DNA of 64,000 nucleotides from Thalassospira lucentensis MCCC 1A00383 = DSM 14000 (GTDB lineage: Bacteria > Pseudomonadota > Alphaproteobacteria > Rhodospirillales > Thalassospiraceae). Location of the stretch: positions 496,001-560,000 of the forward strand of contig NZ_ATWN01000001.1 in the NCBI RefSeq assembly GCF_000421265.1, given 5' to 3'. Positions 7,771-40,280 of this stretch are shown here, piece after piece (within the stretch, counting starts at the first letter, position 1; each line of letters begins with the position of its first letter). Under the pieces are notes generated by a model that saw only the letters and a list, made by a program, of their open reading frames with translations, did not search any database and was not told the DNA's origin. A program made the position numbers and the translations under genes.

Positions 7771-9081
7771 CTAGCTTGTCGGTTTGCGCTCGGCCGGTTT
7801 TGGTGCGGCCGGTTTTACCGCTGCGGGTTTTTGCCCGGCCTTTGCGGCACGTTTTGCGCGGCGCTGACGGGCGATCATTTGATCAATGTAGCGTCCCTGG
7901 AACAGGGTGATGCCAAGTGACTGACCGAACTTGATGGCGGTTGGGCTGTCGCACCGACACAGGATGACGCGTTCACGGCCGGAGTTTTTAACTAGACTGT
8001 CCATCTCGCCGTATTTTTTGCGGATGACATTGTCTGTCATTTCTTCGCGCCATGCGACCTTGATGAAATCGGCCTTAAGACGTTTGCGATCCACAAAGGA
8101 CAGCGATTCCACGGTCAGATTATCAATCAGGATCCTATAGCCGCGTTCATGAAAATCATCACGCACCTTCAGATATGTTTCCAGATTGGAAAACAGATCG
8201 ACCTGATTAAGTTCGATGATCACGTTGCCCGGCCATTTGCGCCGCACGGTTTCATCAAACTTGTCAAAATCCTTGGACGTCAACGTTCCAAGGTTCAAGT
8301 TTAACGAGAATGAGCTGGCGTGTGTCTTGAATGTTCGCTTGCACAGGTAATTGAGCATGCGTTTATCAAGGACTTCGGTCATGTGCTGAAACAGCCAGCG
8401 ATTTGACGCCAGATCGATCTTTGGCATCAAGGCATTGCGCAAATCGGTGATGGAGACAAAGAATTCATCGAAAACCGGATGGAGTTCCTTGGACCCGCCA
8501 TGGGCAAATACGCACACGGGTTGCTGACGGATATGTTCCGAAAGGTCGGCGGAATGAATGGTTTCCTCAAGCTGGGCGAGGTTTTCCGCATCAATCGGCT
8601 GCAGGGTTTCATCCTTGTCGCGCTGCTGGGCTGCGCGCATGTTGAGGTTTTGCTGTAGTTTTTTGGCGCGTTCATCAAGATGCTGACACAGCAGCAGGAA
8701 TTCCTGAAACTCGGTATTCAGGTTGTACCAGGTGCAAAAGCCGGTTTCTTCGCTGTCGTCCTGTGACAGTGGATCATCGCGGAACAGATAACGCAGTGTA
8801 TCGACCGCCGGTTCAACATCGGCGATTGATTTGTCTTTCCACACGAAAATAAGATCGTTGTTGGTCAGGACAAAAATACGCCCGACATAGAGTTTCACAT
8901 AGCTTTCAAAGGTATTGGTCGCAACGCGGATGTGATAGTCGCGGCGATGAAACGGTTTCATCCGCGACATATGGATATGTACCGCGCGATGCCCGTATTT
9001 CCGGGTTTCCAGCCGTTGCACATAATCAAGCAACAGGTATTCCTGTAACGCCTGCTGACCATATTGCTGCGGTTCAATCAC
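7771..9081 (-). CDS. Protein with degenerate EAL-like domain
   Basis: This 436-residue soluble protein is of unassigned function. Residues 186-400 follow the order of an EAL (c-di-GMP phosphodiesterase) domain: QQPVCVF, then FSLNLNLGTL (about 258), VIIELNQ (about 287), ILIDNLTVESL (about 317), DFIKVAW (about 338) and LGITLFQGRYID (about 389). The catalytic ExLxR is absent (DEFFVSI sits there), the DDF metal motif reads IDN, and the late Glu is replaced within LCRCD. Catalysis therefore looks lost, and it may bind nucleotide or a protein partner. The first 185 residues match nothing I recognise. The C-terminal 35 residues are a Lys/Ala/Pro-rich tail. It is transcribed divergently from the next gene. 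Confidence 0.7.
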   Translation of the reverse strand: MIEPQQYGQQALQEYLLLDYVQRLETRKYGHRAVHIHMSRMKPFHRRDYHIRVATNTFESYVKLYVGRIFVLTNNDLIFVWKDKSIADVEPAVDTLRYLFRDDPLSQDDSEETGFCTWYNLNTEFQEFLLLCQHLDERAKKLQQNLNMRAAQQRDKDETLQPIDAENLAQLEETIHSADLSEHIRQQPVCVFAHGGSKELHPVFDEFFVSITDLRNALMPKIDLASNRWLFQHMTEVLDKRMLNYLCKRTFKTHASSFSLNLNLGTLTSKDFDKFDETVRRKWPGNVIIELNQVDLFSNLETYLKVRDDFHERGYRILIDNLTVESLSFVDRKRLKADFIKVAWREEMTDNVIRKKYGEMDSLVKNSGRERVILCRCDSPTAIKFGQSLGITLFQGRYIDQMIARQRRAKRAAKAGQKPAAVKPAAPKPAERKPTS

Positions 9082-9404
9082 GAGCGACCCCTGAAAGAGA
9101 AACTAATAGTTTTATATCGTTATGGGCTCATTCCATACAATGGCGAGCAACGCAGGAGCAAATCATATTCTTCTGAAGTTCAGGTTAATACGCCGATCTG
9201 CCTGTCTCTTTTATATGAAGTATCTATTGCCAAGGGCAAGTCGGAGCTGAATGACAGTTACGGTTTTTTCTTTAACGAATTCTTGGCAAGCAGAGTGCAA
9301 AATCAATGTGATATGGGGTAATCGATACTAATTTTTTGCCAATTGTCGGGTGGGAATGCAGTATGGTTTTACGAATTGTCTTTAGATTATAGGGGATTGG
9401 CGCC
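9082..9404. other. Divergent intergenic region, AT-rich, no gene seen
   Basis: This is 323 bases between the EAL-like gene and the SPOR lipoprotein gene. It must hold promoters for both. An open frame runs through part of it but has neither a ribosome site nor protein-like composition. No clear repeat or RNA gene was seen. Confidence 0.5.
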
Positions 9405-37821: not shown

Positions 37822-37898
37822 GGTCCCTTAGCTCAACTGGATAGAGCAACAGACTTCTAATCTGTAGGTTGCAGGTTCAAGTCCTGCAGGGATCGCCA
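37822..37898 (+). tRNA. tRNA-Arg (TCT)
   Basis: The acceptor GGTCCCT pairs with AGGGATC (one G-T). The anticodon stem-loop CAGACTTCTAATCTG carries TCT, the T arm is GCAGGTTCAAGTCCTGC, and CCA is encoded at 37896-37898. An AT-rich islet begins directly beyond its terminator. Confidence 0.97.
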
Positions 37899-37910
37899 TT
37901 TTTCCAAAAT

Positions 37911-37938
37911 AAAGCCCCTCAGAAACTGAAGGGCTTTT
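37911..37938. terminator. Bidirectional terminator between tRNA-Arg and the AT-rich islet
   Basis: AAAGCCCCTCAG pairs with CTGAAGGGCTTT around AAA. T runs are present on both strands, so it can serve the tRNA (plus) and the islet operon (minus). Confidence 0.8.
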
Positions 37939-37959
37939 GGTTAAGGCTGTTTTTTAACT

Positions 37960-38139
37960 CTAGGCAGAGAATTGAGCGTCTTCTCGGTTTCCGTTAAGAG
38001 CTCTGGTATCTGATCCAAACTTCCTGCCTTCTTCGTATGCTTTGTTGAGCGTTTTAATATCTTCACTACACTGTAGGTCGCCCAGATATTTTTCGCGCAA
38101 CTCTTTGAGGCGTTCTTCATATTTCATCTGAAGTGTCAT
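37960..38139 (-). CDS. Small charged protein in AT-rich islet, unknown
   Basis: This 59-residue ORF starts with ATG at 38139 behind an excellent Shine-Dalgarno (AGGGGG, eight bases away). It ends at TAG just before a terminator. The protein is mainly helical and highly charged (MTLQMKYEERLKELREKYL...), with no membrane segment. It lies 26 bases downstream of the proteasome-like gene on the same strand, so the two form an operon. No family is recognised. It may be an adaptor, inhibitor or regulator of its neighbour. Confidence 0.65.
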   Translation of the reverse strand: MTLQMKYEERLKELREKYLGDLQCSEDIKTLNKAYEEGRKFGSDTRALNGNREDAQFSA

Positions 38140-38165
38140 ACTGTTACCCCCTAACAGTTATTCGG

Positions 38166-39419
38166 TTATACTCTATCATATTGTGCATTGAAATGTGGAT
38201 TTAGTTTGGCATTGAAATAGTGTTTTCTTTCCATCCAAACTAGACCGTCACCTTTCGTTATCACAGCAACGTCAATTGGTCCGCCGACTGTTTCGGCATT
38301 TCCGCGTACTTTCTTTTGGAACGAGTTCAAGTTAACCAAAGTCTCCGCGACCAATGCCATCTCATCTTTAGGTAGGTAGGCAAGTGTCTTATGAAACGAA
38401 TCAATGTTGGATTGCGTAAACTCTCTTATTTTGAGCTGTGCAGTTTCTAGTGTAGCGAAGCATATTTCGGCCACGCGTTCGTCAACTATGCTTTTCAGTT
38501 CTTCATTGGGAGCAAACTGCTCCTGAATTAAAGCTGTGACCTTGTCGACAGTGTTAATATACTGACTGTGCAAAATGCCAGTAATTATCTGATCCGCAAT
38601 TGCGTCTAAACCGATTATCGTCTGCGTTGTTGCTTGAGACTGTGCAAAGGTAAAGACGCCTGTGCGCCGTTCTCGTGAAATTTCATGTTCAGTATTTTTT
38701 CTGATCCTTCTGAGATCATGAAGCGGGGTCATGATTTCAACAGATACGCAGGCAGGAAGTATTTGATCTAATCCAAAGCCTGAGATCACAATTCCAGAAT
38801 AGCGAAATTTATAATCTTCACTGAAAATGTATTTTACCCAAGAAGATAGGAAGGGTTGCCATAAATCTTCTAGTTGCGAAAATGATTCGTCTTTTTGGAA
38901 GATTGGTAATGCAAGTTCGTTTAGGGCTGCTAAGTGATCATCTAGGGCCGCTTCGTTACAAAAATGCGGTTGAATCTGGTTCCAAATTTCAATCTGTCCA
39001 ACAATGCAATCATGAAAATTTTCCTCATAGTTTTTGTCGTCAGAGTTTATAGTTTTATTGAAGGCAGAGTTGTGTACCTCTGATAAAAAACTCTCAAGTG
39101 AGGCCATAGTTTCACGCACTGCGTAGTCGTCACAGACCCATTTATTTTGATGTACAAAATCTAGGAAGTGCGTCATTTGCTCGCTAATTGTACCCATAGG
39201 TTCAAAGCCGTCTCTCCGGTATTCTTTGATAATTGTTTCCCATGGGACACCGCAGAATTCAGCGCCCTGATAAATCATTATGCCGATAGGGTATGAGTAA
39301 TTCAGTGCGAATAGTTTTAAGGCTGAGTTGTAGATACGTTTGCCATCTCCAATGGTAACAGCGCTGTCTGCTGCCAAAGCTACTGCACTTGAATTCATTA
39401 CGGCTACTTCAGAGGTCAC
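38166..39419 (-). CDS. Proteasome-like Ntn-hydrolase candidate with large helical insertions
   Basis: This 417-residue soluble protein has an N-terminus that matches the proteasome beta/HslV pattern. After Met removal it starts TSEVAV (Thr1), then AVALAADSAVT places Asp at 17, and NSALKLF places Lys at 34 (33 in HslV). The strand pair YSGIVISGFGLDQILPACVSVE (about 207-228) resembles the sheet after the first helices. The C-terminal GGPIDVAVITKGDGLVWMER resembles the last strand. The intervening stretches (about 70-200 and 260-350) are predicted helical and make it about twice the length of HslV. The GTG start has a GGAGA Shine-Dalgarno. GC is clearly lower than in neighbouring genes. The fold call is inference. 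Confidence 0.62.
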   Translation of the reverse strand: MTSEVAVMNSSAVALAADSAVTIGDGKRIYNSALKLFALNYSYPIGIMIYQGAEFCGVPWETIIKEYRRDGFEPMGTISEQMTHFLDFVHQNKWVCDDYAVRETMASLESFLSEVHNSAFNKTINSDDKNYEENFHDCIVGQIEIWNQIQPHFCNEAALDDHLAALNELALPIFQKDESFSQLEDLWQPFLSSWVKYIFSEDYKFRYSGIVISGFGLDQILPACVSVEIMTPLHDLRRIRKNTEHEISRERRTGVFTFAQSQATTQTIIGLDAIADQIITGILHSQYINTVDKVTALIQEQFAPNEELKSIVDERVAEICFATLETAQLKIREFTQSNIDSFHKTLAYLPKDEMALVAETLVNLNSFQKKVRGNAETVGGPIDVAVITKGDGLVWMERKHYFNAKLNPHFNAQYDRV

Positions 39420-39439
39420 AGGTTATCTCCAACTAGAGT

Positions 39440-39468
39440 TATATCTACCTGCACTAATTTAAAGGCAA
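39440..39468 (-). promoter_or_regulatory. Candidate promoter of the islet operon
   Basis: On the minus strand a TTGCCT -35 box and a GATATA -10 box are separated by exactly 17 bases, 20 bases ahead of the GTG start. The islet thus appears to carry its own promoter and terminator. Confidence 0.5.
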
Positions 39469-39506
39469 CCTATGATTGATTTGTTAATTAGTTTGTTTTG
39501 TGGCTG

Positions 39507-40154
39507 TTACCGGGCAGCCAAATACCGACCCGGACGGTGGTTAATCGCGATGATCAGGTTCAGCACAACCGCACCCAAGATCGACAGCAGGACCTTATCA
39601 AACGGCAGAGTCAGGAAGGCGATGACGAGGATCGCCATGTCGACGGCAAGTTGAAAATATCCGGCCCGGATACCAAAATGTTCCTGTAGATAAAGGGCGA
39701 GGATGTTGATCCCGCCAAGGCCTGCGCGGTGACGAAACAGCATCAAGAGGCCAATCCCCATCAGCGCACCGCCGGCAACCGCCGCATAGATCGGGTTGAG
39801 CATGGTGAAATCGACCATCATCGGGGTCAGTTTGGAAAAGATCGATACCAACCCGACCGCGACAAAGGTTTTGATGGTGAATGCCCTACCCATGCGTTTA
39901 TAGGCCAGCCAGTAGAATGGCAGGTTGATGACAAAGAAGATCACGCCAAAGCTAAACCCGGTGGCATGTTCGATTAAAAGGGCGGCACCCGCCGTGCTGC
40001 CCGTGACCAGAACGCTTTCGCTATACAGTGTCACCCCAAGTGACACGACCATGGTGCCGAGCAGAAGGGCCAAGACATCCTCATACAGACGATGGGAAAT
40101 ATCGTCCTTTTTTGGGGTGTCGGAGTTGGTGGTGCGAGCGGTGGGTTTGGTCAT
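39507..40154 (-). CDS. YitT-family membrane protein
   Basis: This 215-residue inner-membrane protein has about six helices and the YitT-type features TGSTAGAALLIEHATGFSFG near residue 50 and FRHRAGLGGINILALYLQ near 140. The function of the family is unknown. The start ATG at 40154 is followed by a hydrophilic leader. Composition returns to the normal host pattern here, marking the islet's right edge. Confidence 0.85.
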   Translation of the reverse strand: MTKPTARTTNSDTPKKDDISHRLYEDVLALLLGTMVVSLGVTLYSESVLVTGSTAGAALLIEHATGFSFGVIFFVINLPFYWLAYKRMGRAFTIKTFVAVGLVSIFSKLTPMMVDFTMLNPIYAAVAGGALMGIGLLMLFRHRAGLGGINILALYLQEHFGIRAGYFQLAVDMAILVIAFLTLPFDKVLLSILGAVVLNLIIAINHRPGRYLAAR

Positions 40155-40280
40155 GATCTGCGAACTGTCTTTTGTCTGATGAATGGTGATCAGGGTACGA
40201 TGTTCGCAGGTGCGAAACAAGCAGCCGTCGATGGTGCCGTATTCTTCGCCGGTTTCTGACAGTGTGCTGAGTATAAACGC

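Follow-up and report, generated by a model that had tools for sequence, protein, structure and literature searches.

The gene at positions 38166..39419 of the window (the whole 64,000-nucleotide stretch of Thalassospira lucentensis DNA analysed here) encodes a proteasome-like Ntn-hydrolase of 417 amino acids whose family fits PMI-4, and in most of the copies examined this enzyme gene is trailed by a very short gene with no earlier link to the enzyme family. The two genes therefore seem to make up a small mobile unit, i.e., a cassette of a PMI-4-type Ntn-hydrolase and a dedicated small ligand protein, a reading to which we give a probability of about 50%. Computation supports it through the fold, the invariant residues, the pairing of the two genes, selection acting on the relatives' small ORFs, the variable chromosomal slot and the occurrence on mobile elements. 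The relevant features of the window are:

37822..37898, plus strand: tRNA-Arg (tct), one border of the slot
37899..39506, no strand assigned: AT-rich islet of 1608 bp, GC 0.41, in the variable slot
37916..37933, minus strand: weak terminator-like hairpin 3' of the small ORF (two in the region, 1.2 expected by chance)
37960..38139, minus strand: small partner ORF of 59 amino acids, with AGGGGG seven bases before its ATG, in a conserved position
38166..39419, minus strand: PMI-4-type proteasome-like Ntn-hydrolase of 417 amino acids, predicted catalytic residues Thr2/Asp18/Lys35
39507..40220, minus strand: conserved neighbour gene, the other border of the slot, with a DNA match in 29/29 genomes of the genus

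The first-pass annotation had located the enzyme gene correctly. It starts with GTG, is preceded by GGAG, and its product begins with Met-Thr-Ser-Glu, so that Thr is residue 2. The gene is indeed AT-richer than its neighbours, as had been noted (GC 0.413 vs. 0.531-0.533 in the flanks). The promoter ascribed to it finds no support in a consensus scan, all three promoter-like sites of which lie on the plus strand and the gene on the minus strand. As to the terminator, a terminator-like hairpin is present (37933-37916 in the direction of the gene) but weak, the region holding two of them against 1.2 expected by chance. Furthermore, the islet described as self-contained harbours the 59-aa ORF, overlooked at that time, between the enzyme gene and the hairpin.

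In the structure model, the protein adopts the alpha-beta-beta-alpha sandwich of the proteasome beta fold, with strands 207-214, 382-388 and 392-399 corresponding to the two blocks in which the first-pass annotation had recognized a resemblance to Ntn strands. After the first sheet come helices resembling H1/H2 (60-71 and 78-91), and insertion helices are found at 97-198 and 273-347; these insertions account for a length of about twice that of HslV, as proposed. The predicted catalytic residues were inspected in an alignment of 141 sequences (distinct ORFs from genome and viral loci having one enzyme piece). Position 2 is Thr in all 128 rows aligned there (the 13 gaps are rows where the ORF caller picked an internal start), D18 is present in 136/136 rows with a residue (5 gaps) and K35 in 137/137 (4 gaps). 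Counted from Thr1, these residues are D17 and K34, thus the order Thr1, Asp17, Lys34 of proteasome beta/HslV claimed for the protein holds in every aligned row; note that Lys is at position 34 here and at 33 in the canonical Ntn triad of N-terminal Thr/Ser, Asp17 and Lys33. Two further stretches, spanning the last strands, are nearly invariant (E376, V378-G379-G380 and D383; D391-G392, W395, R398-K399 and Y401-F402). Neither a different fold nor homologues with other residues at these three positions, the two outcomes that would have spoken against the assignment, were encountered. Removal of the initiator Met would expose Thr as the predicted nucleophile Thr1, and the catalytic centre would consist of Thr1, Asp17 and Lys34, presumably acting on an amide bond. 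The autoprocessing activity considered earlier is not required, given that Thr directly follows the initiator Met in all rows whose N-terminus is aligned and a propeptide is absent. The helical insertions may replace ring packing or gate the active site.

A search of 5.8 billion proteins resulted in 5130 matches at E<=0.001 among 8000 scored candidates. The closest of the 120 matches listed (self excluded), P0003, is 66% identical, the others 32-37%, and none of these 120 carries a Pfam domain. The enzyme itself gave only weak, sub-cutoff matches to Pfam and NCBIfam and no match to PDB sequences. PHROG 5990, a family of unknown function, matches 30/30 members of set A1 and the window protein with E 2.8e-85; it provides a family name without a function, and mainly cellular copies were studied here.

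Fuchs, Alva and Lupas described 22 new proteasome-like families in 2021 (PMC8665760). One of them is PMI-4 (proteasome homolog with multiple insertions 4), for which 501 sequences at 90% identity are given. Its insertions follow H1/H2 and separate H3 from H4, and it is distributed over numerous bacterial phyla, Euryarchaeota and phages; among the PMI variants, Cyanobacteria and phages are marked only in its row of Table 1 of that paper. Both traits are found here: the model helices 97-198 and 273-347 occupy the corresponding places, and our loci include Bacillota, Bacteroidota, Planctomycetota, a Nostocales cyanobacterium, archaea and phages. The window enzyme family thus fits PMI-4 (representative HDY66466.1), being matched through the published description of insertions and distribution, and the "new" enzyme of the first-pass annotation would belong to a family already published. 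The likeness lies in a proteasome-like core with helical insertions, spread over many phyla, archaea and phages; the difference is that the portions of the 2021 paper used here report no suggestive genomic context and no function for PMI-4, whereas in our loci a small ORF trails most copies.

Other proteasome-like enzymes agree less well. The HslV subunit is compact, with about 175 amino acids. The window enzyme is twice as long as HslV or a 20S proteasome beta subunit and is devoid of a propeptide, and inspection by eye of the neighbouring ORFs listed revealed no HslU, Mpa, Clp-type or other ATPase gene, in line with the first-pass annotation. Anbu, as described in PMC8665760, possesses a C-terminal coiled-coil helix, whereas the insertions of the window enzyme are internal. 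Connectase is likewise a Thr enzyme of the proteasome type and also bears a helical insertion; according to PMC8665760, however, it lacks H1/H2 and carries a two-helix insertion at S3/S4, whereas the window enzyme has H1/H2-like helices (60-71, 78-91).

The region downstream of the enzyme was surveyed in 80 genome loci (the best 80 of 494) and 81 viral loci (80 of them the best 80 of 134). A small ORF was defined as an ORF of 40-85 amino acids on the same strand, with an ATG or GTG start located -32 to +32 nt from the enzyme stop; other ORFs of at least 250 amino acids in the same loci, called by a simple ORF caller, served as controls, and copies with less than 330 bases after the stop (3/80 genome and 4/81 viral loci) were excluded. 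A small ORF with a Shine-Dalgarno sequence follows the enzyme in 52/77 genome copies vs. 15/363 control genes, and in 45/77 viral copies vs. 24/296 control genes. If no Shine-Dalgarno sequence is demanded, the values are 74/77 vs. 83/363 and 70/77 vs. 72/296, respectively; note that the viral loci include near-duplicates and that viral small proteins recur (126 distinct among 154 over all loci). In 61/148 cases, the small ORF begins before the enzyme gene has ended. The pooled pN/pS of the relatives' small ORFs is 0.27 over 22 pairs, which share members.

In 37 small proteins, hand-chosen as alignable, a single invariant Pro is present within a short conserved aromatic-rich stretch; Pfam revealed no convincing family for them. 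A partner profile built from these 37 rows recovers 35 database proteins. Applied to 37,978 stop-to-stop ORFs, it gave 53 matches at E<=0.01 among the loci in which an enzyme had been mapped. Directly 3' of the enzyme lie 52 of them; as 37 of these adjacent matches are training rows, the independent share is 15/16. The sole non-adjacent match, in L067 (7492-7725, minus strand), is an additional, diverged partner copy that lies upstream of the enzyme gene and is encoded on the other strand. A second set of loci yielded nine profile matches, of which only five (L238, L248, L252, L255 and L256) are new, because the small proteins of L244-L247 were already represented in the first set. The small gene is annotated as hypothetical protein in four records (Javan468, Javan103, a Providencia phage and an Enterococcus plasmid); the E. 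coli record omits it, and a 49-aa ORF is present there. No small ORF was found within 60 nt of the enzyme stop in the new Pseudomonadota loci L235, L236, L237 and L238, the last having a profile match a little beyond this range. The partner is therefore either not universal or hard to see in these loci.

The 59-aa ORF of the window gave no match to the partner profile (probability 0.2%) and was not reached in a five-round profile search. One other database protein is similar to it (59 amino acids, 69% identity). The contig of this relative and that of the 66% identical enzyme relative have the same size of 7566 bases, which suggests that both genes lie on one contig.

The product of the second gene (mostly 50-65 amino acids, the gene often overlapping the end of the enzyme gene) would be the dedicated ligand of the enzyme and would bind to it. 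Our first choice for its role would be an inhibitor or antitoxin-like control peptide, as this fits best to the order of enzyme followed by small protein, the frequent overlap, the fast divergence and the frequent presence. The second choice, a dedicated substrate, appears unlikely to us: Thr1 would form an acyl-enzyme with the small protein, followed by hydrolysis or by transfer to another amine, as in connectase. Indeed, connectase is a proteasome-like protein ligase of high specificity, according to PMC8665760, and the invariant Pro in its aromatic-rich surroundings could be a recognition motif. However, a cleavage or ligation site is not evident in the small proteins, the partners of the phage copies are very diverse, and connectase has its own insertion elsewhere, at S3/S4.

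The assumption that the gene has been acquired is supported by its place in a variable chromosomal slot and by the occurrence of relatives on mobile elements. The slot between tRNA-Arg and the conserved neighbour gene could be compared in 26 of the 28 other genomes of the genus, the remaining two stopping at a contig edge. It contains 21 and 29 bp in two genomes, and in the other 24 it is occupied by 777-10,208 bp of different DNA; no blastn match to the window islet was found at the slot in these 26 genomes. One other genome of the genus (G022) has an enzyme gene, which is located elsewhere (L220, about 7969-9198; 31% identity), its slot being 21 bp. By eye, slot cargo in the genus loci (L194-L222) resembles a HigB/HigA pair and iron-uptake genes.

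Matches to the enzyme were found in 13 phage records (nine from Streptococcus, seven of these nine being satellites) and in nine plasmid records. In the records inspected, the gene holds accessory positions: it is among the last genes of two satellites, follows the lysin in Javan85, and in two E. coli prophages lies between Q and a DNA methyltransferase gene on the opposite strand. Both phages and phage satellites thus carry PMI-4-type enzymes as cargo, and a few plasmids have them next to ubiquitin-like operons.

These neighbourhoods were found in six alphaproteobacterial loci (L263, L264, L265, L266, L050 and L069), where multiubiquitin, ThiF (E1) and DUF6527 genes are located within about 1.5 kb of the enzyme in two layouts. 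Four of these loci are on plasmids, three from Rhizobium and one from Mesorhizobium, with multiubiquitin and ThiF genes at this distance from the enzyme; the layout of the Mesorhizobium plasmid recurs in L050 (Caulobacter) and L069 (Novosphingobium). This corresponds to 2/80 genome loci (with flanks of varying size) and 4/8 plasmid loci (from eight of the nine plasmids). No ubiquitin-like genes are present in 8 further Pseudomonadota loci or in the window; E1 is rare (1/385 genomes of the class at E<=1e-40), and the only E1-bearing genome has no enzyme gene within 19 kb. The ubiquitin-like link thus exists, but as a general rule it was rejected. In the broader two-gene reading given below, some alphaproteobacteria would hold a bacterial neighbourhood of ubiquitin plus a proteasome-like enzyme.

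Judging from the distribution, the cassette may plausibly serve in conflicts with phages or rival elements. In its stronger form, i.e., an anti-phage or inter-element system in which the enzyme, once freed from the control by the small protein, turns on a protein of the cell or of a phage, we regard this as possible but rather doubtful. The patchy distribution, the presence in phage satellites, phages and prophages, the variable tRNA-linked slot and the six loci with ubiquitin-like genes are all consistent with it, the last because ubiquitin-like conjugation (Bub) operons are putative immune pathways. However, the account of Bub in the part used of PMC13373217 leaves protection undemonstrated, and the ubiquitin-like genes are missing from the 8 further loci. 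In PADLOC 2.0.0, the window enzyme matches no family at E<=1, and other members gave scattered matches (best E 0.00075). Among 140 neighbours (all from L002-L047, within the first 150 of 261), defence-like genes were type IIG and II restriction-modification, PDC-S02, PDC-M19A, SoFic and mad2; with at most two members in each of the 25 families listed of 187 PADLOC families, there are few defence-like neighbours and no strong signal of a defence island, and this idea was dropped. A limited literature search found neither a partner nor a defence role for PMI-4.

We tentatively propose, at slightly less than even odds, that PMI-4 provides the catalyst of a widespread, hitherto unrecognised two-gene mobile system. 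Its proteasome-like threonine enzyme would either be switched by the co-encoded protein of ~50-65 amino acids or act on it, and would have come to stand beside ubiquitin-like conjugation operons in some alphaproteobacteria. The recurrent small partner makes PMI-4 testable, with two genes, one predicted nucleophile and one candidate ligand.

The enzyme could finally be an ordinary chromosomal amidohydrolase of metabolism or protein turnover with incidental trailing ORFs, which we consider very improbable. Many copies do lie among unrelated metabolic genes, with neighbours mostly unlike one another, and the four new Pseudomonadota loci have no close small ORF; against this stand the adjacency statistics, the pN/pS value and a prevalence near 2%, unlike that of a housekeeping gene. 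In three phyla, 9/398, 9/392 and 7/392 genomes possess the enzyme, and 1/17 in a small phylum (these counts include search-centre genomes and some fragments); in E. coli, 9/5426 genomes match by DNA over 24% of a distant query. Some of the archaeal copies look damaged: L249 has a stop within the match, and L250 and L252 as well as L253 and L254 are split into separate pieces.
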